DNA of 46,509 bases. It comes from a virus. Location: IMG/VR virus record IMGVR_UViG_3300031977_003000, positions 1 to 46,509 of that record. The stretch is one strand, 5' to 3'. This document shows, one piece after another, positions 2,405 through 24,086 of the stretch (its first letter is position 1; every line of letters starts with the position of its first letter). Under the pieces are notes generated by a model that searched no databases, was not told the origin of the DNA, and worked only from the letters and a program-made list of their open reading frames with translations. The translations under genes and the position numbers were made by a program.

Positions 2405-2534
2405 AGGTTGGGCAATTTCAATCGGGTTTTATCCCGGAGTACTAATTGGCGTGCGTAGTTATTTCCAAGAGGATATGACTTCACACGTAGTGTACATTCC
2501 GTTTTTTGATATTGCATTTCAAATCGCACACTAA
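2388..2534 (+). CDS. Small hydrophobic protein of 48 residues upstream of nrdB
   Basis: ATG at 2388 lies within the previous small gene, and the TAA at 2532-2534 overlaps the nrdB start (TAATG). The protein begins MSKENKGWAISIGFYPGVLI, continues GVRSYFQEDMTSHVVYIPFF and ends DIAFQIAH. It is rich in aromatic and beta-branched residues with two alternating hydrophobic stretches; it looks like a compact beta structure or a peripheral membrane peptide, not a clean transmembrane helix. I recall similar short proteins next to phage reductase genes but cannot name a family. The exact stop/start overlap with nrdB is the best evidence that it is translated. Confidence 0.6.
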   Translation: MSKENKGWAISIGFYPGVLIGVRSYFQEDMTSHVVYIPFFDIAFQIAH

Positions 2535-3502
2535 TGGGGTTATTTGATGAACGCATTCCGTATAAGCCTTTCGAGTACCCGGAGTACTACACAGAAGGCT
2601 GGCTAAAGCAAGCGCAAGCATTTTGGTTGCACACCGAAATCAGTATGCAGGGCGATGTCAAAGACTGGAACGAGCATCTAACCCCGGCTGAAAAGAACCT
2701 GGTAGGAAATATCCTACTGGGTTTTGCTCAGACCGAATGTGCCGTATCCGATTATTGGACACAAAAAGTTGTAGGCTGGTTTCCTAAACATGAGATCCAG
2801 CAAATGGCTATGATGTTTGGTTCACAAGAAACCGTACACGCTGTAGCCTACAGTTATTTAAATGAAACATTAGGACTTGAAGATTACGAAGCATTCTTAC
2901 ACGAGCCAGCAACAGCAGATCGCTTTGACAATCTCGTTGCTTACGATGGTAATGACCCTGTTGGTATTGCTAAATCATTAGCAGTATTCAGTGCCTTTGC
3001 AGAAGGTGTATCATTGTATTCATCGTTTGCAGTATTGTATTCATTCCAAATGCGCAACAAGCTTAAGGGCATTGGGCAGCAAATGAAGTGGTCAGTACGC
3101 GATGAATCATTGCACAGCAAAATGGGGTGTCAATTATTTAGGCACATGTGCGAAGAAGATGCCTCGTTGCTAGAGGCTGTGAGATCGCATGTAATTGAAG
3201 CGGCTGAAACAATGGTAGAGCTTGAGCTTAATTACATTGATAAAATGTTTGAAGCTGGCGATATCGAAGGTATCAAGTCTGAAGACTTAAAGAATTTTAT
3301 TAAAAAGAGAACAAATGAAAAGCTTGTTGAGTTGGGGTATATTGACCTTGGCAATTATTTCCCTTTTGTGGAAGCCTCGGCAAAAGAACTAGATTGGTTT
3401 TACCATCTTACCGGTGGCGTAACCCACACAGACTTCTTTGCTATTAGACCTACAGATTATTCTAAAGCAGGAGAAAACGAAGACTTTGAAGATATTTGGT
3501 AA
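2534..3502 (+). CDS. nrdB: Class I ribonucleotide reductase, beta (radical) subunit
   Basis: The 322-residue R2 subunit forms the di-metal/tyrosyl radical used by the alpha subunit to reduce ribonucleotides. Metal ligands can be placed by spacing against E. coli NrdB: E68 (E. coli D84), E99 and H102 in QETVH, E157 in AFAEGV, and E191 and H194 in RDESLH. The intervals 68-99 and 157-191 equal the E. coli intervals of 31 and 34. Y106, four residues after H102, sits where the radical tyrosine Y122 belongs, so a tyrosyl-radical enzyme is expected. The first ligand is Glu instead of Asp, as in several other subclasses. The start overlaps the preceding stop (TAATG), and the alpha gene follows after one base. 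Beta preceding alpha is the reverse of the usual bacterial nrdAB order. Confidence 0.96.
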   Translation: MGLFDERIPYKPFEYPEYYTEGWLKQAQAFWLHTEISMQGDVKDWNEHLTPAEKNLVGNILLGFAQTECAVSDYWTQKVVGWFPKHEIQQMAMMFGSQETVHAVAYSYLNETLGLEDYEAFLHEPATADRFDNLVAYDGNDPVGIAKSLAVFSAFAEGVSLYSSFAVLYSFQMRNKLKGIGQQMKWSVRDESLHSKMGCQLFRHMCEEDASLLEAVRSHVIEAAETMVELELNYIDKMFEAGDIEGIKSEDLKNFIKKRTNEKLVELGYIDLGNYFPFVEASAKELDWFYHLTGGVTHTDFFAIRPTDYSKAGENEDFEDIW

Positions 3503-7071: not shown

Positions 7072-7494
7072 TTATTTTTTATTACCGTATTCAGCCTGCA
7101 CGTCGAATGATGGGCATGCTTTAGCTGCAAATTCATTATGTCCGTGGATAGTTGTATTAGCAAAGATATCTGTTAATACAAAAAGCAGGTTATCCAATGC
7201 TGCCTTCTGCTCTGACGTGCGTGTGTCTTTCGGTGTTTTACCGTCGGTTTCAACGCCGCCAATATAACAAATACCTATAGAATTAGAATTCTGTCCCTTT
7301 GTATGAGCACCAGATCTTTCTATAGGTCGACCAGGATGTACAGTCCCATCGAGATATATCACATAGTGGTAGCCAATGTCTGACCACCCGCGCCCATTAA
7401 CATGCCAATCACGGATTGTGTCAACATCAATATGCTGCCCTTCGCGTGTGGCGGAGCAATGCACAATAATCTTATCAATTTTTCGTGTTATCAT
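7072..7494 (-). CDS. N-acetylmuramoyl-L-alanine amidase, T7 lysozyme type
   Basis: A zinc amidase of the Amidase_2/PGRP fold that cuts the bond between MurNAc and L-Ala in peptidoglycan, acting at lysis. From the ATG at 7494 it has 140 residues. The ligand and catalytic pattern matches T7 lysozyme: H12 (VHCSAT), Y42 (IGYHYVIY), H119 (IHGHNE), K125 and C127 (KACPSFD), with the same H-x5-K-x-C spacing. GRPIERSGAHTKGQNSNSIG is the usual substrate-groove segment. I prefer 7494 because the previous stop lies one base upstream, as elsewhere in this operon; an alternative ATG at 7518 would add eight residues and overlap the previous gene. There is no signal peptide, so a holin would be needed for release; the two preceding genes encode membrane proteins. 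Confidence 0.95.
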   Translation of the reverse strand: MITRKIDKIIVHCSATREGQHIDVDTIRDWHVNGRGWSDIGYHYVIYLDGTVHPGRPIERSGAHTKGQNSNSIGICYIGGVETDGKTPKDTRTSEQKAALDNLLFVLTDIFANTTIHGHNEFAAKACPSFDVQAEYGNKK

Positions 7495-7495
7495 G

Positions 7496-7807
7496 TTATT
7501 TATTTTTAAGTCGTTCATTTTCTCTTTCTAAGAACTCTACTTTAGTCCTTAATACGGACACTTCTTCTGTAAGTTTAAGCACTATTGCTCTTAGCTCTTC
7601 TTTTTCCTCTGCCGACGCGGCGAGTAATGCCTCTAAGTTTCTCACTCTATTTTTCAAATCGTCTCGATACAACACACCATCATTATTTTCTAGTTCAGAC
7701 TTTCTTTCGTCGGCTTTAGCTTTTAATCTAGCTTCAAAGAATTTCCATATTCCCGCGGATCCGGCTACTGTAACAGCGGTTATAATTATTTGTGTTATAT
7801 TATCCAT
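7496..7807 (-). CDS. Membrane-anchored coiled-coil protein, putative lysis accessory
   Basis: A 103-residue protein with one N-terminal hydrophobic helix (residues about 4-21, TQIIITAVTVAGSAGIWKFF) followed by a long charged coiled coil (residues 45-103) with heptad-like leucines. The start overlaps the end of the preceding gene by 8 bases, and the amidase follows after one base. A single anchor plus a coiled coil next to an amidase resembles phage Rz/i-spanin or small lysis-accessory proteins. It lacks a lipobox partner, so spanin identity is not established. It could also be a pinholin-type or virion protein. Confidence 0.7.
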   Translation of the reverse strand: MDNITQIIITAVTVAGSAGIWKFFEARLKAKADERKSELENNDGVLYRDDLKNRVRNLEALLAASAEEKEELRAIVLKLTEEVSVLRTKVEFLERENERLKNK

Positions 7808-8195: not shown

Positions 8196-11100
8196 TTATT
8201 TTTTACTATTTTCATAGTTGATTTCCCACGCGTTGTACTTAAATGCAGCATCTAAATCGCTTATGTTGTTTTCTTTTCTATATTGTTTCCAGGCCGCGTC
8301 TTTTTCTTTAGCCTCTCTTTCGCGTGTTTCTATACGCGTTTTCTTAGCCTGCTCAATACCCTGCTGCTTGCGCGCCTCCTTAGCTTCAGACTTAATTAAA
8401 TCCGCTTCTTCGTTGCGAACACCAACATCCCAAGTTTTCCATCCGAGTGCCAATGCTATACGCTGCCATGCTTGGTTTCTTTCGTCAAGCGCTTCGCCAA
8501 TAGATTTCATTTCGTCAACTACACGATCTAGCGGTACGTTGGTAACGCCTGATAATACATTCCCAAATATAGACCAGTTAGGACCAAGATTTAATCTGCC
8601 GTCAGCAGTAATAGCCCATCCTCTTGCTGCAACATTGTCTTTTTCAAAACGGTTGGTTTGAATAGCGCTATATATTTTGCGGAACTTAGATTGTATTGGC
8701 GGAGAAATACCAGCAGCCGCTAAAAGAGTATATGTATGGTCGGCTAGGAACCCTTTTTCTTCTTGCTTATAGTATTCCATGATAGTGTTCTTCATGGTAG
8801 AAGCAACCGCTCCGTATACACCAGATCCACGCAAAATTGTATCTAGCATGCTGTTTGCTACACGGATAGTCTTTTGCTCTTCTTTTGCTACTTTTCTTTC
8901 AACCTCAGCTTCTGACAATTCTTCTTCATCATCGTCATCGTCAAACGCCATGGCAAATAATGCGCTTTGCAGTGCCGAGAATATAAAGTTTTGAATAACG
9001 CCGTAGTATGCAATCTTACTTATATTTTCAACAGCACTCCCTCGGCCGTTTATAAGGTCCTGACCAGCTTTTTTCATCAACCTGGTATATTGCATAGGTG
9101 TGTTAGCAAAAGCAAGCACAAGGCGTCCTAAAACGCTTCTCTGCTGCTGTGACACCAATGCTGGATCAGATGACTGCTGTGCTTCATCCGATTTCATTGA
9201 AAAATCTAAAAACGCTTGCTCTTCCGCTTCTTTTTGGCTCATACCTTGCTTTAGGTATCTGTTTACCCTGTTGCGATAGAACGTAGCTCCACCTGTAGCA
9301 ATTGCCATACTATCCGCAATCTGTGTTGGTGTAAAACCTATTTTTAACAAATATGCCAATATAGCTTGTGGGCTATTTTTAGATTTACCTGCAATCGCTG
9401 CAATTTCAGAATCACTAACATCTTGCTTCAACCCACCCCGACGCTCTTTTAACTTGTCTGAGTTAAAAATCATTGTCCAGTCTGACCAATATTGTTTTTG
9501 ATTTGCAAACGCCGCTCCAGCTTTAAGTATATTATTGTCTGACCAGTTAATAAAGTTGGTGAAAGACAACATTTGCAACAACGCTGAACGACGGTTAAAG
9601 AACATAATAGCACCTGTAGAACCGTTAATCCAGTTTAGCCAAGCATTTACCTGGCGGTTTGAACCAGTGGGTCTGTTAGTGCCGTTTTTCATTGCGTACA
9701 AAGAATCCTCCAAAGCTTCTCTATGGCGACGGCCATATAGCGCTTCAATTTTGTTTAAATTCTTTTCACTAAAAATAATTTCAGCGTTAGCAATAAACTC
9801 TTCTAAGAATTTTTTACGTCCAACTTTTTCGGTCATGCCGTTTAGATCGGAAAGCACACTGCCTGCCTCCCAGTATTCTGCTGGAGCCGGCCACTCATCG
9901 CGTCTTCCTACTACAAGTAAAGCGTCGGCGAGCTCAACCAGTTCTTTATTTTGCGCAATAGCATCTAATAATAATTTTTTATCTCTTTTAGCTAATCCTT
10001 CTACTTCAACGCCTTGGCGATCCCACATAAACACGCGCAACGCATGGTCATATGTAAATTGACTATTGCCAATTTTTTTCGAAAGCATTTTATACTGAGG
10101 TCTAAACTGTTTTTTTACAACAGCAAAGTCTCTTTTTATTTGCTGACGCATTGCGTCAATAGCTGCAATGCCCTTAAAATAAGGCACCATGAGCTTTTCT
10201 TCGAACCAAGCCATATCCGCTTCGCCCTGCTTTCCTTTGCCGGCAAAAGAATAATGTACTAGCCCGCGGAAATCATCAGCTCCTGGTGCAATAAAGAATT
10301 TAAATCTTCCTTTATTGCGCCCGCGCATTTGAGCTTGAATACGAGAATATGTTTTAACAGCGTCAACCCCTGTTTTTCTTTGTATAATCTCATTAAACTC
10401 TACGTCTACTTGTATGCTAGCTTTTCCAACAGAAACATCAAGATCGTTATATAGCTTATTTAAAAACTCAGCGGGTAAGTCTTGCCCCATTTTAAGCTCA
10501 TTAGTATTAAGCTCATAAAAACGATCGCCAAACTCTTCCTTATATAATTTAGCGCTTTCTTGCACCGCGTCCCATGTGCGCTCTACAATCATGTCTGGTA
10601 GTGCTCTTTCGGCTCTTGCTTTGTTTCTAGCAACAGCTTCTTCTTTTGAAGTGTTTGCAAATACAATTGATACTTCGTATCCAGCTTCGCGAAGCGCATT
10701 TATTTTTTTCATGGTAGCATTATAAGATGCACCGGTGCCATCGACAACCATGCTCTCCTTGCCCTCCATGTATTGGCTCATTTTTTGCTCCGCCGCTTTT
10801 CTCGCTGCCGCGCCAAGCTTCGCTCTCATTGAACGCTGCTCTTTATTATATTGCTGTTCATTCGCAGGTAAGCCAGCCTGCTCTTTCATCGGTTCAAGCG
10901 CAATATCTTGGTTGATCACCTTAAAACCGCGTCTACCAAGCTTAAGACCTTTACCTACATTTGTTTTACCAGCGCCTGGTCCACCGACCATAAACACAGC
11001 GCGTGGTACGCCAATCGAAGCTTTACCAGAGTTTTCGACGTCTGATATATCTTGCTTAGCTTGGTCAAGTTCAGCAAAGTCTAGGCCGTTAATAAATGCT

Positions 11101-14100
11101 TCGTATTGCTTTAGGCTTTCCATTCTAGCGTCAATAACCTCAGAAGCAGGCTTACCATCAAACGTAAATACGTCATTTACTCTTTTGCCGGTAAATTTAA
11201 TACGCATATCAGCGCTTGGGTTATTAACACCGTATGCATCTACAGCTTTTGTTACAGTAGCATTTGCTAACCACTGATCGTGAGTACGAAGGTCCAAATC
11301 CATTCTAGCTTGGAATTCCGCATCAGTCATAAAGTCATCGAACATGCGTTCCATGATTTTAAAACTAGTGGTTGCATTATCCCCTAGGTGTTCGCCTTTA
11401 GCTTTGCCTAGTGGCCCGTCAGTAACTGTAATATAAGAAAAGCTACTCAATGCTCTAAATCCAGCAGCAAGGTTTGATTGCATTTGGAAAAGCTCGACTA
11501 CGGTTTCTCCGCTAATTTGCCCGGATTTGTATAAATCCCTAATGGTTGTAGCTATGTGCTTATATAGTTTAATATTAGCAATATTAGCTTTTCTTATTTT
11601 ATCTTCGTATTGCTTAAGCTCTTCAAGCTTTTGGCTTGCCAGCATATTTGAATTTAAAATAGCATGTATTTCAGCCATTAAACCAAAAGAAGAATTAAAT
11701 AACACAACGTCTTCAAGAACAAGTCCGTCTGGAAGTGGTTTATTAGGGCTTGCTAGCATTTTAACATGGCTATCGCGATATGCACCTTTGCTTCCGTCTT
11801 TTTTCTTTTGTGCTGGGTCAAGAACGCGATAGTGGCTTCCTAATATTGAAACTTCGTTACCGTTCTTATTTTTAGAAGGATCTAATGCTGATAAAATATT
11901 ACCACCTAAAGCCTCTGCAATTACAAGTCTTTCTTTATCAAATCGATCAAGCCTTGCTTTATCACTTCTTTTTCCTAGCGATTTGTTTTCTGCAAGGAAT
12001 TTTTTAATATTAGCAGGAATAAGCCCTGATCTTTGTACGCGTTGCATATACTTCAATCCGTCTGGATCAATAATAGCACCAGCCTCGTGAGCTAGTCTAA
12101 CCAACTCTCCAACGCCTTCTAAATCACCATATTCCTCGTCGTAACCAGGCAACAAGATACCTTTGGCATTAACAACGTTGTCAATGCCGTATTTATCTAC
12201 CTCTTTAACTAAGTTTTTAAAACGCTTAACGTCTCCTTCATTGGTAATATCAAACCCAAGAGAAGCTTTAGCATTACCTCTTTCAACATCTCTTCGTACA
12301 TTAGCAACAAAGTTATCTAAAAGAACAGCAGAAAGCTCTTCTTGTCTTTGCTCGAACGCTTCTCTAATATCACTATTAGGATCTAACAATTCTTGGTTTA
12401 ATATATCAAACGCAGTTTCTTCAGCCATAGCTTTAGCTAAAGACTCTTTGCGTCCTCTAATAAGCTTGCCATCTTCGGTAAAGAAGTTTGATAAGAAATC
12501 GGCGTCTGACAAACGCGTTGACGCGTTGGGTAGCCTTCTAACCATTTCAGCGCCAGAGGTTCTACCGGCATTGTTTGTAGACACAGTTTCCCTGTCTATT
12601 TTTTTACCCTGCCAATCGCTTGTCCATGCACCATCAACCTTCTTTTGGACAGCGTTAGGCATTGCCGTCATAAGATATGTGGTAGTCATGTTCTCAAGAA
12701 TAGCCCGCTTATTTTTAAGCAAATACTTTCTGAGCTCTCCGTCTTTTAGACCGCCCATTTCTTTCTTAAAAACAATATCAGCCTGCTTACCTACGGTTTT
12801 CTTAATTTCAGCAATGTAAGGCTTAATAGTAACGTTTTTAGAAACAGTCTGATCCATTCTTGTTTTTAATGTTCTAGCTGTTCTTTGTACTATTTTACCA
12901 ACCGCAGCGAATCCTTCCTCTGATAAAACTTTTCTTTCAACAAGATTTTTATACTCAGGCATTTCTTGCTGTGAAGTAGTAGTGGTTTCAGCAGCAGTGA
13001 TTTGGCGCGCTTGTTCACTATCCGTGCTTTCAAGGCGTGCTCTTTCTTGGCTTTCTTCAAACAAAGCTTTTCTAGCATCTAGCTTACCGAAGTTTACATT
13101 AGAAAACAAAAATTCACCAAATGTAATTCGCGCATCACCGGATTTACGCGTAGCAGCTGGATTAAAGTTAACCAATCTGTCTGCAACGCTTTCAATAATT
13201 TTATTAGCTTCTTCCTGGCTTACTGACCTTGAACGTATGTAATTTGTAATAGCAGGGTGCAGATTACCGTCATTGTAAATAGGGTTAAATACCTTGCGGT
13301 CAAAAAATTGCTCTTGAGTTTCAATAGACTCAGGTACCAATGCGTTAATTTCATCCAGCAGCGCTATAGATGCTCTACCCTGTATTGATGATTCATCCTC
13401 AGGGGGCAGCTGGCGCGTTACTTGTTTACCGCTTTTAAATTTGTCTACAGTATGCTCAACAAAATTTACTACATCCTCATAAGAGTCTAATTTAAAAAAC
13501 GGAGCGGCTTTTGGGTTTGCTCTTTTAATAACGCCATTTATAAACGATTTAATTTGCCAAATTTGTTTAAATCCAGAATCGTTTAATATATTGTTACCTT
13601 TTAAATCTACAATTAGTGTAATAAGCTCCTCGGCGTTGTGTTGCCCTTTGTTTAGCCTTTTGTATTCATTAATGCGTGCCATTATCGCATTATACATTTT
13701 TTTGCTAATTCGCTTAGACTCAAAAGCGTTTTCAATTTGCTGTATGACATTTTGAACCATACCGTCGCCAATTCCAACTAAGCCTTCATCTGTAACAATT
13801 CCAGCCTTTTCTATTTGCATGTGTCCAAACTCGTGCATTGGAGAAGTAGCAGCCATCATACCGCGTATTCCGCCATACGCCGTAATTATTGCTTTAGTGT
13901 TTTGTAAAAACAATATAGTCTTGCCTTCATTATAATACGCGTTGTCGCCGCGCTTCATATTAGACTCAATCTTTGCTAATTCTTTTTCTGAAAACCCTTG
14001 GTTTTTGAGTTCTTCTATAGAGTTTATTTCAAAATAGCTTTTACCCATAGTAGCTTTTGCAAAAGCTCTTGAGTAGTTTAATTGTTGCAGCTGTAGCTTT

Positions 14101-17100
14101 GCCTCTGCTTCATTTTGGGCTTCTTTTGAAAGCTCTTCAATTTCAACTTCAGTCTTATTTAATAGACCTTCTCTTATTTGAACTTGTCTATCAATTTGTT
14201 CTTGTATAGACTGTAGTTCTTTATTTATTTCGTCGTTACGTACATTGCCGTCCATTAGATTTCCAGCCTCTTCCTGCAAGTCGCGAATTCTCATATCCGC
14301 GCGGGCTATATCAATAAGATCTTGGTCGGTTAAGTTTTCTAACTTTGTAAGTATATTAATGTCTTCTCTTAAGAGGTTTTTTAACAACAAGTCTTTCTCT
14401 TGTTGCATTTTGCGCATTTGCGCTAAGTTTTCTGGCGTGCTTTCTTGCTTGCTTAGGTTTTCAATTTTTTCACCAAGAATTGAAACCTTACCAACTATTT
14501 CACGAATACCCCGTATTTCACGTCGAGTAGCAAAAGTATTTCTTATAGAATTTATTACCCTTGGTCCAGAAGCTTTAGCGTTAATTACGAAAGAAGACAC
14601 CCCCACTTGTCTAATAAATTCAGCGTCTATTCCTTCTGTAACATGCACTCCACCAACCATTTCGTCTTCGAGCACATTTTGACCCATTTTTGTTACTACC
14701 TCTTCTGCGATTTCTATAGGAACACCAACAACCATTTGTTTTACGCTCCCAATAACATTAGATGCCCATTTTGCAATAGGTTCTTTTATGTATTTTCGAA
14801 GGGCATTAAAGCCTATAGCTCTCGATCCTCTTTGAATTCTATCTAAAGTTCTTAAAGTACCTAACCCTTCCGCAACTGTAGCAATACCAGCATTCATCGC
14901 CATCCCAAAAGATATGTCTAAAGTATCCATATCAAGTAGTCCTTCGTTGTGCTCGTATTCAGCTTCTAGCTCTTTAATTTTATTTTGGAAAAAAACGTTA
15001 TCTGCATTTTCATTAGCTCTGAGCTCGTCTAATTCCTTTGCAATTTCTTTATTTCTTTCCGCAGCTCTTTCTATTCCGCCTAAAGTTTGTTGAGCATAGC
15101 CGCCGCCTTCCATTACAGCAAAAGTAAGCATGGTTTGTCGCCTTGCTACTTTCATGTATTTTTGCATTTCAACAGCTTTTTCTGCTTTGGTCATATTTTT
15201 AGCGGACCTGCTTATAGACTTTCTTGCAAGCCCACTCGCCCTTGCTTGAGGTATAAATATAGCTGCTAATGTGGGGACGGAGTTAAAAACAGTGTCTACA
15301 ACCCACCAACCAACTTTTCCGTCTTCTTTCGCCTCGTCGTAAGTTCTTACTTGTGCAATATTACCTCTTCGGGCTTCCAAAGTGTGGCGATAATCAGCAA
15401 GATTTGTTTCCGTAGCTTCCATTGCATCATATATCCACCCAACTTTTGCAAGCTCATTTTCAGTCATATTTTTATACTCATCGCTGTCTTTGTCGAAAGA
15501 TCCGGCGATTACTTCAAATATTGCAGCCGTTGAGCCTATAAAAGTTTCTTCAAGAGCAAGAGCAAGCTTACTAAATATATTATAATTTTTACCAAAAGCA
15601 TCGAACAAAACAGCCGCATCATTTGCTTGCTCAATTCTTTTTAGCAATTCTTTTTCTTCTGCAACTAATTTCTGTGTGTCACCTAAAAGAGTCTGACTTT
15701 GATCCGCTAAAATCTGCACTTGATCAGAGTCCATAAAAGCAACATATTCTTCAATAAGAGCATTAAGATCGTCAATGTCTTTATTATATGCCTCTACTTT
15801 TTCGTTATATCTATCGCCCGCGGAGCCTAAAAAACTTTTCGGGGGTAGCGGGGCAACACGCATTGCGTCTTTTCTTCTCTGAATTAACGTTTCATATTCG
15901 CTTTTTTTCTTTAAAACAGCGGCATTATTAGCCTCCCAGGTTGCCCAATTAGTTTCAAGATTTGCACTTGCTTGCTCAAATACATTTAATTCAAGCTCAA
16001 TGCGCTTGCCCTCGTCTTTTAATAATTCGTCGTATTCTTCTTTGTTTAATACTCTATTATACCGCGTTATGCGTTCCACATGCTGCATCATCGTGCGAGG
16101 CTGTGGAGTATAACCAAAAGGTCCGGTTGATGGACTAACCCTTGAATCTTGCAAAACCCTTTTATACTCGTCACCTAATTCGCCTTCTAGCTGGTTTAAA
16201 ACATACTTGGTTAGCATGCTTCTTTCTTCAGGGCGTAAATCACCTAGGTATATTTGAGCATTTCTATTTCTGTCGGTATTTACCCCTTCAGCAACAACTT
16301 CGTCTGGAGCCCAGCCTATATCGTACCCGTCTAAAATTTGTGATTTAGTAAGAAGCTGTAAATCTCTGTAGTTTATTCCTTCGCCGCTAAAAGCGCCGGG
16401 GCCATTTCGGAAAGGCGTGCCCCCTGTGTTATTAATTATATCATAAAATAAGCTTATTTCATGATTTTCTTTATTTAAATCCCAAATAGTAGGGGGGGCA
16501 ACATTGTCTGCTCTGGGATTTTCTGAAATCCAAGGTTGGTCATAAATTTGCTCTTGATAATATGCAGGTACATAAAATTTTTCCCCAGCGTCTTCCGCGG
16601 CGTAAAATCTTTCGGCGTCCTCTTTACTAAGGTACCTAGAAATATCGCTGCTAGCTTCAACATACCCCAAATCTAAAAGAGCGATTGTTAATTTTGCATC
16701 TTGAGGCGTAATATCAGTTGTTACTTCTTGTAGCTCTATCGCGGCTTTTGTAATGTTGAAATCTCTATCACCATCCCAACCAGTAGCGTCGCGATCATAT
16801 GCGTGCTGAAGAATATCAACCTCTTCAAGCATAATAGGGAAATTGCCCTCTGTATTTTCATTAATATCTTCCGCGAGCATTGGCATACCGCGAGGAGTAT
16901 TTTCTATAACCTCTTTTGGTACTTTACGGTAATCAACTTCCCTTTCTAAAATTTGATATTTTTCTCCCTTTTTACGTCTCCAGTTTAGACCCCTTACATA
17001 TGAATCTAAAGTTTTAGGGTAAGTGGTACCACCGGGACCTTTTGTGCCAGCAACATGCTTATTGTAATACAGCTCATTGATTTCTTCTCCGTCAATAACC

Positions 17101-17669
17101 GCATATCTAATGTTCGGCGTTGATTCTTCTTCCCATTTATGAAGATTTACCGCGTTTTGGTATTTTTCTCTTTGTTCTTTTCGTGTATTGACCCAACTAC
17201 CCTTCATGCTTTGAAGAGCATAGGCCCTAACCCACTCTTCCACATTAAGATTTGGATTGAAATATAACTCGTCATCAAGCCAGTCGTCGTCAATTCCAAA
17301 TTGTTCTCGCAGTTCCTCTATGCTCGTATTATTAACAGTTTGTTCAAAGCCTTCAAATATTTTTTGCTTTTCAAGCTCACTAACCGGGGTGGGAGGTTCA
17401 ATCCCTAATGACTCCAAAGAAGTACCGGCCGAACTGGATTCCCCAGCGGCCGTATTGTTTTTCTTTTTCTTTTTCTTTTTGGGTCGCCATCTGTTGGCCC
17501 CATTCGTTTCCGGTTCCGTTGGTGGAGTCGTTGCCTCCGGAACCGCTTGCTTTCCCTCTTCAGCCCAGCCAAATTCATTAGCCCAGTTTTCTAAAGATTC
17601 CATACCTGTAAACTCTAGAGCCTCTTGAGCTTCTTCAAGCGAAATAGTTCTTCCGTCTTTTGTATACAT
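8196..17669 (-). CDS. Giant internal virion (polyvalent-type) protein with zincin and zeta-like kinase motifs
   Basis: A single frame of 3157 codons, one fifth of the window, in the place where T7-like phages keep the large ejection protein (gp16). Domains in order: residues 1-40 (DGRTISLEEAQEAL, then WANEFGWAEEGK), a short head segment; 60-85, a Pro/Lys linker with seven lysines; 90-1000, mostly helical; about 780-800, a hydrophobic stretch; 1050-1200, coiled coil; H1279-E-F-G-H1283, a zinc metallopeptidase HExxH motif; about 2215-2400, a zeta-toxin-like kinase with GGPGAGKT at 2229-2236, INQDIALEPM, VVDGTGASYN and an Arg-rich lid; about 2670-2900, a conserved hydrophobic region (NWINGSTGAIMFFNRRSALL) like polyvalent-protein C-terminal domains, ending in an acidic run (AFDDDDDEEE). 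Such proteins are injected with DNA to disarm the host. Virion location and enzymatic roles are inferred from synteny and motifs. Confidence 0.88.
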   Translation of the reverse strand: MYTKDGRTISLEEAQEALEFTGMESLENWANEFGWAEEGKQAVPEATTPPTEPETNGANRWRPKKKKKKKNNTAAGESSSAGTSLESLGIEPPTPVSELEKQKIFEGFEQTVNNTSIEELREQFGIDDDWLDDELYFNPNLNVEEWVRAYALQSMKGSWVNTRKEQREKYQNAVNLHKWEEESTPNIRYAVIDGEEINELYYNKHVAGTKGPGGTTYPKTLDSYVRGLNWRRKKGEKYQILEREVDYRKVPKEVIENTPRGMPMLAEDINENTEGNFPIMLEEVDILQHAYDRDATGWDGDRDFNITKAAIELQEVTTDITPQDAKLTIALLDLGYVEASSDISRYLSKEDAERFYAAEDAGEKFYVPAYYQEQIYDQPWISENPRADNVAPPTIWDLNKENHEISLFYDIINNTGGTPFRNGPGAFSGEGINYRDLQLLTKSQILDGYDIGWAPDEVVAEGVNTDRNRNAQIYLGDLRPEERSMLTKYVLNQLEGELGDEYKRVLQDSRVSPSTGPFGYTPQPRTMMQHVERITRYNRVLNKEEYDELLKDEGKRIELELNVFEQASANLETNWATWEANNAAVLKKKSEYETLIQRRKDAMRVAPLPPKSFLGSAGDRYNEKVEAYNKDIDDLNALIEEYVAFMDSDQVQILADQSQTLLGDTQKLVAEEKELLKRIEQANDAAVLFDAFGKNYNIFSKLALALEETFIGSTAAIFEVIAGSFDKDSDEYKNMTENELAKVGWIYDAMEATETNLADYRHTLEARRGNIAQVRTYDEAKEDGKVGWWVVDTVFNSVPTLAAIFIPQARASGLARKSISRSAKNMTKAEKAVEMQKYMKVARRQTMLTFAVMEGGGYAQQTLGGIERAAERNKEIAKELDELRANENADNVFFQNKIKELEAEYEHNEGLLDMDTLDISFGMAMNAGIATVAEGLGTLRTLDRIQRGSRAIGFNALRKYIKEPIAKWASNVIGSVKQMVVGVPIEIAEEVVTKMGQNVLEDEMVGGVHVTEGIDAEFIRQVGVSSFVINAKASGPRVINSIRNTFATRREIRGIREIVGKVSILGEKIENLSKQESTPENLAQMRKMQQEKDLLLKNLLREDINILTKLENLTDQDLIDIARADMRIRDLQEEAGNLMDGNVRNDEINKELQSIQEQIDRQVQIREGLLNKTEVEIEELSKEAQNEAEAKLQLQQLNYSRAFAKATMGKSYFEINSIEELKNQGFSEKELAKIESNMKRGDNAYYNEGKTILFLQNTKAIITAYGGIRGMMAATSPMHEFGHMQIEKAGIVTDEGLVGIGDGMVQNVIQQIENAFESKRISKKMYNAIMARINEYKRLNKGQHNAEELITLIVDLKGNNILNDSGFKQIWQIKSFINGVIKRANPKAAPFFKLDSYEDVVNFVEHTVDKFKSGKQVTRQLPPEDESSIQGRASIALLDEINALVPESIETQEQFFDRKVFNPIYNDGNLHPAITNYIRSRSVSQEEANKIIESVADRLVNFNPAATRKSGDARITFGEFLFSNVNFGKLDARKALFEESQERARLESTDSEQARQITAAETTTTSQQEMPEYKNLVERKVLSEEGFAAVGKIVQRTARTLKTRMDQTVSKNVTIKPYIAEIKKTVGKQADIVFKKEMGGLKDGELRKYLLKNKRAILENMTTTYLMTAMPNAVQKKVDGAWTSDWQGKKIDRETVSTNNAGRTSGAEMVRRLPNASTRLSDADFLSNFFTEDGKLIRGRKESLAKAMAEETAFDILNQELLDPNSDIREAFEQRQEELSAVLLDNFVANVRRDVERGNAKASLGFDITNEGDVKRFKNLVKEVDKYGIDNVVNAKGILLPGYDEEYGDLEGVGELVRLAHEAGAIIDPDGLKYMQRVQRSGLIPANIKKFLAENKSLGKRSDKARLDRFDKERLVIAEALGGNILSALDPSKNKNGNEVSILGSHYRVLDPAQKKKDGSKGAYRDSHVKMLASPNKPLPDGLVLEDVVLFNSSFGLMAEIHAILNSNMLASQKLEELKQYEDKIRKANIANIKLYKHIATTIRDLYKSGQISGETVVELFQMQSNLAAGFRALSSFSYITVTDGPLGKAKGEHLGDNATTSFKIMERMFDDFMTDAEFQARMDLDLRTHDQWLANATVTKAVDAYGVNNPSADMRIKFTGKRVNDVFTFDGKPASEVIDARMESLKQYEAFINGLDFAELDQAKQDISDVENSGKASIGVPRAVFMVGGPGAGKTNVGKGLKLGRRGFKVINQDIALEPMKEQAGLPANEQQYNKEQRSMRAKLGAAARKAAEQKMSQYMEGKESMVVDGTGASYNATMKKINALREAGYEVSIVFANTSKEEAVARNKARAERALPDMIVERTWDAVQESAKLYKEEFGDRFYELNTNELKMGQDLPAEFLNKLYNDLDVSVGKASIQVDVEFNEIIQRKTGVDAVKTYSRIQAQMRGRNKGRFKFFIAPGADDFRGLVHYSFAGKGKQGEADMAWFEEKLMVPYFKGIAAIDAMRQQIKRDFAVVKKQFRPQYKMLSKKIGNSQFTYDHALRVFMWDRQGVEVEGLAKRDKKLLLDAIAQNKELVELADALLVVGRRDEWPAPAEYWEAGSVLSDLNGMTEKVGRKKFLEEFIANAEIIFSEKNLNKIEALYGRRHREALEDSLYAMKNGTNRPTGSNRQVNAWLNWINGSTGAIMFFNRRSALLQMLSFTNFINWSDNNILKAGAAFANQKQYWSDWTMIFNSDKLKERRGGLKQDVSDSEIAAIAGKSKNSPQAILAYLLKIGFTPTQIADSMAIATGGATFYRNRVNRYLKQGMSQKEAEEQAFLDFSMKSDEAQQSSDPALVSQQQRSVLGRLVLAFANTPMQYTRLMKKAGQDLINGRGSAVENISKIAYYGVIQNFIFSALQSALFAMAFDDDDDEEELSEAEVERKVAKEEQKTIRVANSMLDTILRGSGVYGAVASTMKNTIMEYYKQEEKGFLADHTYTLLAAAGISPPIQSKFRKIYSAIQTNRFEKDNVAARGWAITADGRLNLGPNWSIFGNVLSGVTNVPLDRVVDEMKSIGEALDERNQAWQRIALALGWKTWDVGVRNEEADLIKSEAKEARKQQGIEQAKKTRIETREREAKEKDAAWKQYRKENNISDLDAAFKYNAWEINYENSKK

Positions 17670-17687
17670 TATATTATATTATTTGCC

Positions 17688-18962
17688 TTAAAGTACTAAT
17701 TGAACAAACTTATCTTCATCTCCCGCTGGTATTCGCCCGATGCCGTCTGCAGCTACAAATTTACCATTTTTCCATTTTCCAATAACATATGCGTTTGGCG
17801 TGCCATTATACTCTGGATTTACTGTACCGTCTGATAATATTGATATTTTCCCTTGGTCATCGTAAGCAACAGCTCTAGTATCTGAGCTAACTTTAAAGGT
17901 ATTTTTCCCTTGTTTAAAATAACCTAAAGTTTGTTTTTGTGCGCTGGTTAAAGGGCTACCGCTTCTCGAAGGACGTCCCGAGCTTGGCTTATCTGGGTGG
18001 TTGGCGGCATAGTCGTCAGCAGCAACTTGAGAACGCTCGCTAAGAGCTGTAACAAACTGCCCAATCATCTCTTCTCTGATAGCACCTATTGCCGCTGTTT
18101 TTTCTTCTCCGTCTGCCATATCCATAGCGTCGTCAAAACGATCTTTAATGTCATCGTCGTAAGCTACGTTTTTCATGATCGGAGAATACAACACGCTTGC
18201 AATAACGTTTGGGTCGTTAGGGAACATGTTGTTAATGTACTCCTCGTGGTCCTCCAGCTGCGCTTCTGTAAACGGATCTTGGCGACTTTCTCTACCGGCT
18301 TTTTTATATTCAGCATCTAAGTAGTTCATAAGCTCAGCGGGGCGCATCGTATAATTGCTGCCGTCCTCCATCGTTATATTTTCACCGTTGTAATCAAAGT
18401 AAAATTCAGCCGTATTGGGATCTATAGCTTTAAAACCTTTTGTCCAAACAGCGTTTGCTTTATTAATATTTTCGCTGTTATACGGGTCATTTGAAACATC
18501 ACTCCCTTGAGGTCTTAACTCAGAATTTGCTGCCCAAGTTTGTCTGCCTTTAAATAGTTTTTTTCCTTTATCTTCAACATCATAAAAAAGCTGCTGTATG
18601 GCATTACGTTGATCCTGAAGAGCTTGTCCCTGTGGGCTGCTTAATGGAATACCCGCGGCCGTTAATTGGGCCATTTGCTGACCTATTTCAAAGTATTCAG
18701 TACGCCATTGAACGCTTACGTCTTTGATTATTTTGCGCTCTTCGGGAGAAAAACCAGATAGATTAATATCGCTATCTAGCTGACGGAAATATCTATTGGC
18801 GTCAGCAATAGCTTTGTTATTACTATCTAATGCCGCTTTACGCTTTGCTCTTTTTAGCTCTTTTCTTTTGTCTATGTCTTTGCCGAACGCTCCGGCGTAA
18901 TTCACGAATCTATTCTGAACTTCGGCAACTTTATTTGCCGCTTCTACAACCCCACTCATCAT
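17688..18962 (-). CDS. Internal virion protein (gp15-like position)
   Basis: A 424-residue, mostly helical protein. The N-terminus (VEAANKVAEVQNRFVNYAGA) is Ala-rich and amphipathic, followed by a basic KRKELKRAKRK stretch and an acidic central region. A Ser/Gly-rich linker (SSGRPSRSGSP) near residue 335 leads to a small C-terminal beta-type region. It starts ATGATG, with the preceding stop overlapping (TGA). It lies between the small Ala/Gln-rich protein and the giant protein, the order of T7 gp14-gp15-gp16, so I infer a middle component of the ejected internal core or trans-envelope channel. No enzymatic motif is visible and sequence identity to gp15 is not evident. Confidence 0.75.
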   Translation of the reverse strand: MMSGVVEAANKVAEVQNRFVNYAGAFGKDIDKRKELKRAKRKAALDSNNKAIADANRYFRQLDSDINLSGFSPEERKIIKDVSVQWRTEYFEIGQQMAQLTAAGIPLSSPQGQALQDQRNAIQQLFYDVEDKGKKLFKGRQTWAANSELRPQGSDVSNDPYNSENINKANAVWTKGFKAIDPNTAEFYFDYNGENITMEDGSNYTMRPAELMNYLDAEYKKAGRESRQDPFTEAQLEDHEEYINNMFPNDPNVIASVLYSPIMKNVAYDDDIKDRFDDAMDMADGEEKTAAIGAIREEMIGQFVTALSERSQVAADDYAANHPDKPSSGRPSRSGSPLTSAQKQTLGYFKQGKNTFKVSSDTRAVAYDDQGKISILSDGTVNPEYNGTPNAYVIGKWKNGKFVAADGIGRIPAGDEDKFVQLVL

Positions 18963-19630
18963 CTATAGCCTAATAATTCACCCAGTTTAGCTGCATTTAC
19001 ACCAAACTGTCCCATTTGTCCAAGTTGCTCGGTTGGCAATCCCATTACTTGTCCAGCTAAATCACCAACCCCTCCGGTTGCACGGGCAATACCGTCAATC
19101 TGTGCTTGCTTAGCCGCTTGAATAGCCGCTTCAGATGTAGCTAATTGGCCAGCGTCAATTTGGAATCGTTCTCCAAGCAGTTGTCCTTTAAGTGCTCTTG
19201 ATCTTTCCTCGCCAGCAAGTCTTTGATTTTGTATTTGACCAGCCATTCCTGCTGCAGCTCTTTGGTTTGCTGCTTCTTGTTGGCCAATACTAGCCGATGC
19301 TGTAACTGCGTTTTGCGATTGTTGATTTGCTATAGCTTGTGCTAATGCAGCTACCCCTGAGCCACCTGAAGATTGGTTTAATTGGCCAAGAGTGTTTGAT
19401 AATCCCTGCGCTTGTTGCTGTGCGGCAAAGTTAGCTGCTTGAGTATTAACCGTTAGGTCTTCCATGGTGTTCTCCATGTTGCCGTATAGGTTTGACGTAT
19501 CTTGATTGAAATATGCATCAATAGACCTGTCGTACGCCACCTGTGCAGCATCTCTCTTGGCTAGCCTTTCTTTCTTGCCGATATTAGCGCCGATGGCTTG
19601 TACTGTACCGGCGAAAATGTCTCCGATCAT
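18959..19630 (-). CDS. Small Ala/Gln-rich internal virion protein (gp14-like position)
   Basis: A 223-residue protein opening with a glycine-containing hydrophobic helix (MIGDIFAGTVQAIGANIG) and continuing with long Ala/Gln-rich helices (residues 60-190), for example ANFAAQQQAQGLS and QEAANQRAAAGMAGQ. This composition and a first hydrophobic helix are typical of T7 gp14/P22 gp7-class ejection proteins that form the outer-membrane part of the DNA channel. It directly follows the tail nozzle gene with a 31-base gap and overlaps the next gene by four bases. The assignment is by composition and gene order. Confidence 0.75.
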   Translation of the reverse strand: MIGDIFAGTVQAIGANIGKKERLAKRDAAQVAYDRSIDAYFNQDTSNLYGNMENTMEDLTVNTQAANFAAQQQAQGLSNTLGQLNQSSGGSGVAALAQAIANQQSQNAVTASASIGQQEAANQRAAAGMAGQIQNQRLAGEERSRALKGQLLGERFQIDAGQLATSEAAIQAAKQAQIDGIARATGGVGDLAGQVMGLPTEQLGQMGQFGVNAAKLGELLGYR

Positions 19631-19661: not shown

Positions 19662-22600
19662 TTATTCGCTGCTGATAAATATCTCTGAGCTAACAGCAAA
19701 CAGTTCTTTTTTGGTTCTTGCATTAGTCGCAGCTAATGTCATTTTAACTTTAGGGGCAAACCCTACGATGCCCGACGTATTTACTATTCTATTTTTTGCA
19801 AAGAATGCATAGTCACCAGCAACGGGGGTTACACCCTGGTCATACGAAACTTCGACAACATTACCGGTTACACTAAGTATCTCGCCGACCTGCTTTTTGC
19901 CGGAGTTGTTTGATATGTATAGCACATCACCATAATCACCAGACTGGCTGCCATCCCCCTTGGTTTGAATTGAAGGATTAGGCGTTTCTGCAAATGTAAT
20001 TTCCCAGCTTGGTACATTCGTTAATGACGAAACACTTTCAATGTCACCAATTCCTTGCACACTAAAATCTTTTAAATCAAGCGTACCTGTTTGAGAAGAG
20101 TTAACCCACGTTGCTGAGGTGCCTTTTATAAAGTTAAAATACAATCCCTCACGTTCTTTCCAGCCGGTTACCTCCCCGCTGTTTAAAGAGTCGCTTATAT
20201 CAGCGCCCCAATTTGCATCGCCTTGGTATGATAGTGTTTTAAAGTTTTTAACCTTGTCCGCAGCGTCGTTGAAAAAGAATGTTACAGAAGATTCGTAAAA
20301 ATTACCGTAAAAAGTATTCCGACTAGATGAGTTATTGTGTTTCCATACTAAGCCGTTGTTTATTGAGTAATAAACATTGTTCAAAGAAACAGCACAGGGT
20401 TGTGCATACGAAAGCCTTGTTGGCCATCCGTCCACTTGCTCTTTAAATGCTATAGTTTCGTCGCCTACAAAATGCAAGTTATATGTACCCATATTTTCGT
20501 CATATGAGCCTGTTATGCGACCTGTGTGGCTTTTAAATTTATTTTCAAAGAAATTAGACATGCCTTTAGTCGAAATGTCTGTAAGACCATCTCTTGAAAG
20601 TCTTAATACTTTACCCCGCGCTCTGTCTGTGAAATAAGCTCTAAATCCATATGACACAAACGATTCAGGTCTTTTGGATATACCAAACTCCCCTGCAAAC
20701 GGCATTGCTTGACCAAGCACATTATTTGACGACGTAATGTTGGTATTACCGTCTGCATTAAACAAAGCGTCTTTATTTGCCAGTATGCTAAATACCTTGT
20801 CTTCAAGTAGTGCCACCAGGTTGGTGTCGCGAGCATGCAACTTTTGTATGCTGCCGTATGTATTAGGTAGATCTTTAGTTATCTTTATTGCGGTAGTAAA
20901 CTGATTGGAGTTGTTTACTCCAGCTCTAGTGTTTACAATGCCGCTGTATATTAAACTTGCGTACAATCTTTCTTCACCGTAAGGCGCCTGCAATACCGTA
21001 CTCACCCGAACACCTTTGCCTAGAACAGGCGCGTTAAAGTCGTCACGAATTCTGTTAGACTCAACACCATTTCCGAATGAATAACAGTTTTTAAAGTCTA
21101 AATCCACGCTTGTACCTAAGCTAGAAATTTCTAAAGCATCCGTTGCCTCGTAGTATAAATCTAAATCCGCCAGCTCGATAGGCTTTGTTTCAAACACAGC
21201 CGCGTTGGGCACAGCATGAACGGGACCGTACGACACACTTACTATTTCTATATACCTTGGATAATTGCCCAAGTCGTCATCAAAATCTCTATCGACCGTT
21301 ATAGTTCTTTTACGGTAATCCCATATGTAGCCGTTGGTATCTTCATAATACGAAGACGGCGTGGTAGCGCTTGTAACCAAATAAGTTTTTCCCTCGTCAC
21401 CATCAGCGTTAACAAATCTTATTCGGGTGCCAACGCTTAGCTGATCGAATATTTTTGTCATGTTAGTCTGAGCAAAAGTAGTAACATTGCTAGAGTCATC
21501 GGACGGTGCACGGCTTTCTAATATATGTAAGTCAAAAGTATTAGTGCCGTCGGTTGGCCCATTTAACGCGTGATCAACCGAATCAACATCTGTATTACCA
21601 TACGCCAACGTTGTTCTAGAGCCTCTAATCATATCTCCGCCTATAGTGAAGCTTGCACGGCGCTCAGCAAATACATATTCAGTGGCACTTAATCCTGCTG
21701 CGATGTCTTTTTCAAAAGAAGACTTTTTAGGCACCTTAACAAAAAACTTACCTTGGAACTCAGGCATGTCTTCGTTTGAGTTTTCGTAAACTATTGCTAC
21801 AAGGTGATCGTTGTCAGCCAAAGAAAGCAGCCACGAGTCATCTACGGTTATTCCTGTTTTGTTTTTAAAAACTATTTCGTAATCGTTGTCGGTATTTACA
21901 ATAGGACCGCCGGATTCTATTTCGTAAATAGCCGACGTTTGTGTGCCATCTGATGATTTAAACTGTATTGCACCATCACCTGAAATAGCCTCAAAAAATT
22001 TTCTATTGTTACCCTGTGTTGGCCCTTCAAATATTATTTTATTATTATTATCTTCGTATTCAAATCCTTTTACTGTTGGGTTATTAGCAACCTTGGCGTG
22101 TATTTGAGCCTGAGCTACAGGTTTCTGTACTTTTCTAATAAAACCCGGCGCTTCATTTTTTATGTCTAGTACTTTGTACTTATTGTTTATGTATATCGGA
22201 TCGTTTTCCCCGTGAGATTTTTTAAGTATAAGAAAATCACCTGTTGACACCTTATTGCGCTCAGCAGAAGGGAAGCTTAACCATACATTTCCATCTTCAG
22301 CATCATAAAATCTATCCAATATAATATTATAATATTCAGCTGAAGGGTCTTTAACATAATATTTATAATATTCCGCCCACGCTGGAACAGCAGTCATAGA
22401 TGTTGATGCCGATATTTTATTCTTTTTATTGGCATTCTCAATATCAACTATAATCGCCGCATCTTTGTTTGTAAATATAGGTGTTTCACGATTAAAAGCA
22501 TCAAGAAAAGAAATACCCACCTGGTATGTTCTGTCTGATTTTACGCTTTCTTGACCCAAATATTCCTCTTCGGCAGTCAATGCTGTTGCAGAAGTTGATG

Positions 22601-24086
22601 CGGTAATCGTTGCGGTATCGCCTAGGTCGTAATTATGCAGATAATTACCATAGACAACGCGGTTGCCTATGATTTCTTGTGCCTTTGCTTTTCGCGGCAC
22701 GTCGTCGTATAATCTGAGTAATTGCAAATCTTCAACAACGGGTCCAAGCAAGTCTTTTGTAATTTCAAAAGTGCTGAGGTTTCCATCTGCTGTAAGATGT
22801 TTGTCAAGAACGTATATATTATTAGAAGAAACACCCTTGTATAAAATTTCTATTTCCTCAACGTCGGCAGGCGGTAAAGCGTAAGTATCGGTTGGGAATG
22901 TTAATGTGATTTTTCTAATATTGTCATCCATACCTAAGTTAAACCCGTCTTTGGGTTCAAACTTAAATTGATCAGATACAAACGCGGCTTGGCTAAACGG
23001 CGCATACGTAGAATATTCGCCGTCGTTGTATTTCCATCTATATGAAAATCTAGGGAAGTCATTCTTAAATATAGGCTCACCTTCAATAAGGACCATTTCC
23101 CATGCTAATGTCTCATTTGGTATGTCCTTAGAAGAGCTTATAACCGTTAGCGTAGCGTCTGTATAAAAAGTTTTATTACCAACACTAATGCCAAGCATAG
23201 AGCTAAGTGTGCCAATTACCTCATATTCTATTTGAGTGCCATCATCTCTTGTGGCTACGTGGCTTAATCTTACATCTTGGTTATTAAAGACACTTAGCGG
23301 GCCAATAGCCTCATTAGAACTCCATCCAATATTTAAAGTGTCACTATTACTCAATACAAAGCCGTCGCTATCTACAAAATTAGCATCGACAGTTACGGGA
23401 TGAACGCCTACCGCTTTTGGCCCTGCTTCACCTTCTCCATCATAGCTAGTTGCGTCCGTGGCTGTAGATAAAGCCTCAATTGTAACAGCCTGCTTTGGCG
23501 AGGGCTTAATAACCGTAATATCACTTTCTTTAAATAAACGACTATATATAGATGTTGTAGCATTTATGCTGTCCGTTAAAGATGAATTTGTCGCATCTAT
23601 AAAACGCTCAATATTTATTTTTTTAGGCTCATTAAGATCGTCTGTCCAAAACAATATTCCGTCAAGAATGTTTATTCCAGTAATTGGATAATCTTCACTA
23701 AAATTTAATACATTACCAGATGTACGAGTATCGGAAATTACAGCAAGCAGATAGTTTGTAGACACGCTGTATTCCATAATAGCGTGCTTATTAGCTCCGT
23801 CTGTAACAAAATAATATATTTTATTGTTTAACGAATCTTTATAAATTCCTATAATTTTAGGATTAACAGAACCAAACCCTAAGTTTGTTTGCCATACAAT
23901 GCTGGCAGACTTTCTTTGGGTCGTAAGTGTTGTACCTAATATATTTTGCACTGCGCCAACGTCAGAACCTTCTGAAGTTGCTACTTGAATATTCAGCGCA
24001 TCTCTATATTGTCCAGGCGGAATCAACCTACTGTCTAGGTCTTTATTCATCTTCCCCTGGGTGAAGTTTCTTGTTAATTTAGGCAT
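19662..24086 (-). CDS. Large tail nozzle/stabilization protein (P22 gp10 / T7 gp12 position)
   Basis: A 1474-residue, mainly beta protein. The N-terminus carries a block I recognise from many marine podovirus structural proteins: NFTQGKMNKDLDSRLIPPGQ then YRDALNIQVATSEGSDVGAVQ. Later parts contain repeated beta motifs such as NKIYYFVTDG, GILFWTDDLNEPKKINIERF, RFSYRWKYNDGEYSTYAPFS and RAYFTDRARGKVLRLSRDGL, which look like blades of a propeller, as in the tail needle-hub/nozzle proteins of short-tailed phages. It lies just after the connector-type genes and before the ejection proteins, exactly where T7 gp12 sits. It is about twice the T7 gp12 length, so extra domains (for example receptor-binding or fibre-attachment) are likely. 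No terminator or gap separates it from the gene before (3 bases). Confidence 0.8.
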   Translation of the reverse strand: MPKLTRNFTQGKMNKDLDSRLIPPGQYRDALNIQVATSEGSDVGAVQNILGTTLTTQRKSASIVWQTNLGFGSVNPKIIGIYKDSLNNKIYYFVTDGANKHAIMEYSVSTNYLLAVISDTRTSGNVLNFSEDYPITGINILDGILFWTDDLNEPKKINIERFIDATNSSLTDSINATTSIYSRLFKESDITVIKPSPKQAVTIEALSTATDATSYDGEGEAGPKAVGVHPVTVDANFVDSDGFVLSNSDTLNIGWSSNEAIGPLSVFNNQDVRLSHVATRDDGTQIEYEVIGTLSSMLGISVGNKTFYTDATLTVISSSKDIPNETLAWEMVLIEGEPIFKNDFPRFSYRWKYNDGEYSTYAPFSQAAFVSDQFKFEPKDGFNLGMDDNIRKITLTFPTDTYALPPADVEEIEILYKGVSSNNIYVLDKHLTADGNLSTFEITKDLLGPVVEDLQLLRLYDDVPRKAKAQEIIGNRVVYGNYLHNYDLGDTATITASTSATALTAEEEYLGQESVKSDRTYQVGISFLDAFNRETPIFTNKDAAIIVDIENANKKNKISASTSMTAVPAWAEYYKYYVKDPSAEYYNIILDRFYDAEDGNVWLSFPSAERNKVSTGDFLILKKSHGENDPIYINNKYKVLDIKNEAPGFIRKVQKPVAQAQIHAKVANNPTVKGFEYEDNNNKIIFEGPTQGNNRKFFEAISGDGAIQFKSSDGTQTSAIYEIESGGPIVNTDNDYEIVFKNKTGITVDDSWLLSLADNDHLVAIVYENSNEDMPEFQGKFFVKVPKKSSFEKDIAAGLSATEYVFAERRASFTIGGDMIRGSRTTLAYGNTDVDSVDHALNGPTDGTNTFDLHILESRAPSDDSSNVTTFAQTNMTKIFDQLSVGTRIRFVNADGDEGKTYLVTSATTPSSYYEDTNGYIWDYRKRTITVDRDFDDDLGNYPRYIEIVSVSYGPVHAVPNAAVFETKPIELADLDLYYEATDALEISSLGTSVDLDFKNCYSFGNGVESNRIRDDFNAPVLGKGVRVSTVLQAPYGEERLYASLIYSGIVNTRAGVNNSNQFTTAIKITKDLPNTYGSIQKLHARDTNLVALLEDKVFSILANKDALFNADGNTNITSSNNVLGQAMPFAGEFGISKRPESFVSYGFRAYFTDRARGKVLRLSRDGLTDISTKGMSNFFENKFKSHTGRITGSYDENMGTYNLHFVGDETIAFKEQVDGWPTRLSYAQPCAVSLNNVYYSINNGLVWKHNNSSSRNTFYGNFYESSVTFFFNDAADKVKNFKTLSYQGDANWGADISDSLNSGEVTGWKEREGLYFNFIKGTSATWVNSSQTGTLDLKDFSVQGIGDIESVSSLTNVPSWEITFAETPNPSIQTKGDGSQSGDYGDVLYISNNSGKKQVGEILSVTGNVVEVSYDQGVTPVAGDYAFFAKNRIVNTSGIVGFAPKVKMTLAATNARTKKELFAVSSEIFISSE

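Follow-up and report, generated by a model that had tools for sequence, protein, structure and literature searches.

What does a virus make with a single frame of 3157 residues, and how is so long a chain put together? The question is raised by positions 8196 to 17669 of a 46,509-base IMG/VR virus record, called the window below, which as far as can be told is an incomplete genome. The frame runs on the minus strand from an ATG at 17669 to 8196 without an internal stop; the plus strand of the same interval is full of stops. The original prediction, which left the strand unstated, was correct about the uninterrupted frame and its coordinates, as well as about the residue positions of HEFGH (1279–1283) and of GGPGAGKT (2229–2236) with its INQD and VVDGTGAS context. 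The hydrophobic C-terminal stretch that it described ahead of an acidic run is also present, at about 2890–2909, followed by DDDDDEEE. The reading favored here, with a probability of roughly 0.6, is that the giant, polyvalent in build, serves a crAss-like podovirus as a cargo (ejection) protein, which would be packed in the virion, anchored, cut by its own zincin and thereby made to release an effector cassette.

Gene Setting, Likely Host and Family

The minus-strand gene order of the window is large terminase (PHROG 6681, E 1.5e-169), portal (PHROG 6547, E 4.1e-159), a 392-aa protein, capsid protein (PHROG 13704, E 3.3e-101), a 273-aa protein, a ring-like protein (PHROG 14543, E 1.5e-37), a 301-aa structural protein, the muzzle, proteins of 223 and 424 aa, and the giant. 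The giant gene closes a cargo block of crAss-like type, in which portal, capsid and rings are followed by the muzzle and two small proteins, and an identical order of virion genes is found in Cellulophaga phages phi38:1 and phi19:3 and in Flavobacterium phage elemoA, whose post-muzzle genes are mostly labelled structural in the record annotations. In phiCrAss001 the products encoded after the muzzle gene are cargo, detected in the virion by mass spectrometry (PMC10172136). Gene position suggests that the giant, too, is carried in virions. Since its neighbors (muzzle, ring, portal and capsid) are crAss-like, the setting is not of the T7 type that had been proposed. Nor was the idea of a gp16 equivalent supported: no match to T7 gp16 appeared, the C-terminal core has no sequence match to any solved structure, and the best 50 Foldseek hits in the PDB are kinase matches only.

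The host of this podovirus is probably a member of the Bacteroidota, which fits the naming of the metagenome bins that hold four of the relatives (Bacteroidetes, Sphingobacteriales, Cryomorphaceae and Saprospiraceae). Elsewhere in the window, an amidase-type endolysin (7072–7518; PHROG 822, E 1.4e-57) is encoded shortly after the giant gene, and a GroEL-like chaperonin at 36767–38332 (PHROG 5725, E 3.6e-139); phi38:1 has an annotated GroES beside its terminase gene. At 40018–41538 lies the gene of a tail fibre protein with an endosialidase-type chaperone domain at its end (Peptidase_S74, E 9.1e-17); the product of 41607–43415 is tail-fibre-like and shows a weak match, below the cut-off, to the C-terminal sorting domain of Por (type IX) secretion (E 0.0075).

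An IMG/VR scan with the C-terminal core found it encoded in at least 520 viral stretches. From the IMG/VR loci, 71 non-redundant full-length giants of 2260–3372 aa were kept for analysis; individual loci are given L numbers. When cultured phage records were searched with the giant, no match was obtained except over the kinase. In L030, L073, L077 and L081 the core lies on shorter frames (467–1391 aa), which may be giants split into several genes or the result of sequencing errors.

Within the 3157 residues several distinct domains can be told apart: the zincin, block B, module V, the kinase and the C-terminal core (C core). Their positions, with those of the neighboring genes and of the short motifs at the module borders, are collected in Table 1.

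Table 1. Features of the giant gene and its neighbors in the window (residues are those of the giant; basis refers to the evidence for each assignment).
Feature	Residues	Position	Strand	Basis
Muzzle (tail) protein, crAss-like		19662..24086	-	Pfam crAss_MUZ E 7.1e-14, crAss_MUZ_C 6e-7; PHROG 14478 E 1.9e-140
223-aa protein, predicted first cargo protein		18959..19630	-	Gene order as in phi38:1, phi19:3, elemoA, L013
424-aa protein, predicted second cargo protein		17688..18962	-	Gene order as in phi38:1, phi19:3, elemoA, L013
Giant cargo/polyvalent protein gene, 3157 aa		8196..17669	-	Open frame; 71 full-length relatives
Zincin-like metallopeptidase domain (predicted)	about 1152–1424	13398..14216	-	Invariant H, E, H, Glu; predicted element order; Elemovirus giant, hhalign E 4.7e-7
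HEFGH motif	1279–1283	13821..13835	-	Translated frame; homologous place in relatives
Invariant Glu, predicted third zinc ligand	1348	13626..13628	-	Alignment column E269
Conserved block B, no known family	1571–1799	12273..12959	-	In 46/71 relatives; 69–76% identical to L005, L013, L044
Joint J1, K-A-S-L, after block B	1801–1804	12258..12269	-	Motif here in most relatives with block B
Variable module V	1806–2208	11046..12254	-	Common to 13 relatives with kinase, HAD or neither downstream
P-loop kinase cassette	2214–2413	10431..11030	-	Pfam Zeta_toxin/AAA_33; Foldseek to zeta toxin and polynucleotide kinases; 11/71 relatives
Joint J2, K-A-S-I, before kinase	2216–2219	11013..11024	-	Joint motif comparison across relatives
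Walker A GGPGAGKT	2229–2236	10962..10985	-	Sequence; conserved among kinase members
Joint J3, K-A-S-I, before C core	2416–2419	10413..10424	-	Joint motif comparison across relatives
C-terminal helical core, family hallmark	2424–3116	8322..10400	-	At least 520 viral stretches; fold like C-terminal parts of polyvalent proteins

The Predicted Zincin and the C Core

Exactly one HExxH occurs in 70 of the 71 full-length giants, at a homologous place. Ahead of block B, the alignment of 46 members has just four invariant residues, H200, E201, H204 and E269, which correspond to His1279, Glu1280, His1283 and Glu1348 of the window, the invariant Glu lying 65 residues past the last His of the motif. The model of the zincin together with block B (741 residues) has a mean pLDDT of 77, about 90 around the motif, and a low pTM of 0.40. 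This AlphaFold model has long helices upstream of the HExxH and shows, in this order, a helix, three strands, the helix that carries HExxH and a helix bearing the Glu; the same order is described for the peptidases of polyvalent proteins by Iyer et al. (PMC5512222). The giant of the Elemovirus elemoA has a related HExxH region (hhalign E 4.7e-7). In iterated search a profile of the window's zincin region drifted onto the C core, and only its first hits were used.

That HEFGH is a chance motif in a region devoid of peptidase activity would agree with the Foldseek search of the 741-residue model against solved structures, which returned nothing significant, so that the zincin assignment rests on the conserved residues and the predicted topology. 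A chance origin is nevertheless very improbable, given that H, E, H and Glu are the sole invariant positions ahead of block B in 46 relatives and that the single HExxH recurs in all giants but one. The zincin-type peptidase of the original prediction therefore stands as a predicted, family-wide signature that is more than a chance motif. The one full-length relative with no HExxH, L012, retains a HAD cassette and the C core, and has possibly lost the peptidase.

The C core is all-helical in the model, and by sequence it gave nothing credible against Pfam and the PDB; none of the named polyvalent-associated domains of Pfam was found in it. Among the viral models of BFVD, whose protein names are automatic, the best matches are metagenomic relatives, one of them annotated as a UDP-N-acetylglucosamine kinase, followed by many proteins named PolyVal ART, MuF or large polyvalent protein associated domain, with TM-scores of about 0.3–0.5. 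The predicted fold of the core thus supports filing the giant under polyvalent proteins, as was originally done; the presence of several domains, the zincin hub and the exchange of domains agree with this filing.

An Exchangeable Cassette Ahead of the C Core

The original prediction overlooked that the kinase cassette can be exchanged and that, in other giants, a HAD-like phosphatase takes its place. The slot before the C core is occupied by the kinase in 11 of the 71 giants, by the HAD-like domain in 42 and by neither in 18; no giant has both. The naive chance of such zero overlap, 1.4e-5, ignores common ancestry, and the sounder figure is that from the C-core tree, on which slot content needs at least 10 changes. 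The HAD-like domain (e.g., residues 1955–2122 of L013) displays DFDDT, LTARP, a conserved Lys and DDxxN, which are the HAD motifs; Pfam gives weak support (DUF2608), and the HAD profile matched nothing in the PDB.

The exchange is best illustrated by L013 and L044, which are 92% identical in block B, 86% in V and 93% in the C core. L013 carries the HAD-like domain between V and C, whereas L044 passes straight from V to C, the domain being cleanly absent. The V module of the window, which is followed by the kinase, is 47% identical to that of these two loci. As the N-terminal parts of L013 and L044 are only 26% alike, exchange affects that part as well. Some of the giants with neither enzyme (L014, L016, L019, L026 and L065; L007, L009, L018 and L044) have a conserved EHxxP-type motif in the other modules that precede their C core; for these modules there was no Pfam match. 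A cassette that changes in this way fits an arms race with host defense.

The Kinase and Its Possible Substrate

Structure prediction came out in favor of the P-loop kinase fold expected near residue 2230: the model, of mean pLDDT 80, matches solved P-loop kinases. In Pfam the best match is Zeta_toxin (E 5.5e-15), followed by AAA_33 (E 1.2e-14), and Walker A, NQD, DGTGAS and the Arg-rich lid RN..R.ER are invariant or nearly so across the 11 kinase members. From sequence and model together, the domain is best called a putative P-loop small-molecule or polynucleotide kinase.

Two narrower readings deserve to be weighed. The domain might be a UDP-GlcNAc kinase of the zeta-toxin type that, upon entry, would weaken the synthesis of the cell wall, a role suggested for the zeta-like kinases of polyvalent proteins by Iyer et al. 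2017 (PMC5512222) and entertained in the original prediction. The Pfam ranking speaks for it, as does Foldseek, in which zeta toxin is the top hit by E-value (1.4e-4); by TM-score, however, a bacterial polynucleotide kinase is better (0.68 versus about 0.50), and the Zeta_toxin match ends before the C-terminal part of the family (14–147 of 199). The residues of zeta toxin that contact UDP-GlcNAc are E100, T118, R120, T121 and T128 (PMC4938570). Because they correspond in the alignment to E, T, A, S and K of the window, two of five being identical (the equivalents of E100 and T118) and two differing outright, the claim of UDP-GlcNAc as the substrate is not supported; the position of Arg120 is Ala in all 11 kinase members, that of Thr128 is Lys in the window, and the lid resembles that of polynucleotide kinases. 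The same alignment shows the catalytic Lys46 of zeta toxin to be kept, an Asp at the place expected for Asp67, and Glu116 replaced by Asp. A UDP-GlcNAc kinase is accordingly considered unlikely.

T4 Pnkp consists of two halves, a kinase and a HAD phosphatase. Domains of these two kinds share one slot here, and the cassettes could be end-healing counterparts, a polynucleotide-kinase-like enzyme and its phosphatase, which would repair, or prevent, damage that host nucleases inflict on RNA after delivery into the cell, much as T4 Pnkp acts on tRNA. The repair of tRNA by phage against anticodon nucleases is established (PMC2610378). In profile comparison the lid RN..R.ER aligns with that of the Clostridium thermocellum Pnkp kinase, to which the fold is also similar. 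Against this stand the mutual exclusion of kinase and HAD-like domain, found together in 0 of 71 giants, the fact that no RNA ligase was identified within the window, and the failure of the HAD profile to match a solved structure. End healing is thus a doubtful reading, yet less so than UDP-GlcNAc phosphorylation.

A Recurrent Motif at the Module Joints

Modules of the giant are bordered by a recurrent joint motif, which the original prediction missed. Three non-homologous joints, of which the first follows block B and the others precede the cassette and the C core, mostly share [GA]-[NS]-[VI]-K-[FYW]-S-x-[ST]; variants are K-A-S in the window, at 1801, 2216 and 2416, and R-M-S-Q at two joints of L005 and L006. 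Among 41 representatives of less than 75% core identity, K[FYW]S was found at J1, J2 and J3 in 13 of 22, 9 of 33 and 17 of 41 cases, versus 0.11, 0.33 and 0.33 expected, the proportion lacking the motif varying among the three joints from about one third to two thirds. Elsewhere in the giants it is at background, with 98 occurrences outside the joints in 200,432 aa versus 105.6 expected from composition for the whole. The bin-derived giants L096 and L097, which were outside the set used to define the motif, have it at the same joints. A fourth candidate joint, after the zincin (HExxH +148 to +162; R-A-S-I at 1432 of the window), was dropped as being at background level (1/40 or 2/40 representatives, p 0.25 and 0.19).

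Shared ancestry accounts for one joint keeping the motif across relatives, but not for three unrelated joints sharing it. The codons for Ser, Lys and the flanking residues differ among the joints of the same gene, which rules out DNA-level repeats as the cause and indicates that the likeness is held at the protein level and not as a shared stretch of DNA. The motif therefore suggests putative processing sites, and cutting by the zincin would be the simplest reading of the joints. In its full form, in which the giant is a self-processing injected polyprotein whose zincin cuts at [small]-x-[VI]-K-[FYW]-S (which has become K-A-S in the window) at the border of each module, with cassettes swapped between standard cutting sites, this proposal is tentative and falls short of even odds; weighing against it is the lack of such a joint just after the zincin.

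The main rival to cutting is a binding linker. The motif may be a structural or binding element, or a trace of the recombination points used in module exchange, in a giant that works as one chain. Module exchange falls exactly at the joints, and the N4 virion RNA polymerase, which is thought to work in this manner, has an HExxH domain (PMC12633501) and is nonetheless packaged unprocessed (PMC5512222). The differing codons within one gene and the background level of the motif outside the joints are harder to reconcile with a linker or recombination trace, which is regarded as a possibility of less than even chance.

Proposed Mechanism and Its Meaning

According to the favored reading of an injected cargo protein, the virion would contain the giant together with the two small proteins whose genes directly precede its own, and, judging from gene order, the giant would pass out by way of the muzzle before the DNA does. 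Anchoring, in the virion or in the channel of entry, may be the task of the helical C core and of the divergent N-terminal part. Before or after entry the embedded zincin would cleave the giant at the joints of [VI]-K-[FYW]-S type (K-A-S in the window) and free the modules. The released cassette (in the window a P-loop kinase, in sister phages a HAD-like phosphatase or some other module) might then be an early effector that acts on nucleic-acid ends or on a host metabolite bearing phosphate. A counter-defense role of the giant is presumed.

If self-processing is true, the family possesses a cassette system (kinase, phosphatase, others) with its own release mechanism. The disassembly of polyvalent proteins after entry has been a guess since 2017, when a peptidase was seen and, in the available part of PMC5512222, no cutting site named; a motif at three unrelated joints of one family offers concrete sites to mutate. 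With kinase and HAD-like phosphatase exchanged in a single slot, the part of the presumably injected protein that changes fastest becomes apparent, and so an early phage–host conflict over a phosphate-bearing target is suggested. The group of Bacteroidota phages concerned is abundant and largely uncultured.

Comparison with Known Systems

With the phage polyvalent proteins of Iyer, Burroughs and Aravind (2017; PMC5512222) the giant shares its multidomain build, its place by virion genes, a zincin-like peptidase as the most constant enzyme and exchangeable effector domains; it differs in being set in a crAss-like muzzle-type virion block. The alternation of kinase and HAD in one slot, together with a named recurrent joint motif, was not found in the available part of that paper. 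The window kinase has the P-loop kinase fold and Walker A of zeta toxin/PezT and of bacterial or T4 polynucleotide kinase, with an Asp where their catalytic one is expected. Unlike zeta toxin it is devoid of Arg120 and Thr128, and unlike zeta toxin/PezT it is embedded in a giant chain, with no antitoxin-type partner identified.

The crAss-like cargo proteins (gp45–gp50 of phiCrAss001 and gp98–gp101 of phi38:1) resemble the giant in size and in being encoded behind the muzzle and two smaller cargo proteins, whereas gp47, gp49 and gp50 of phiCrAss001 are related to RNA polymerase. No sequence relation was detected between the C core and the giants of phi38:1 (gp101), phi19:3 (gp129) and elemoA (gp21). 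The N4 virion RNA polymerase (gp50) is likewise an ejected single chain, of about 3500 residues, with an HExxH domain and, behind it, a large, helical C-terminal region devoid of known relatives (PMC12633501); in the window giant a kinase cassette is found instead, and no RNA polymerase domain was identified. Finally, gp21 of elemoA (3694 aa) has no detectable C core and carries a DUF3293 domain, but agrees with the giant in gene position and in its related HExxH domain. As the giant of a cultured Flavobacterium phage (L004, 15564–26645), it is a possible bench model.
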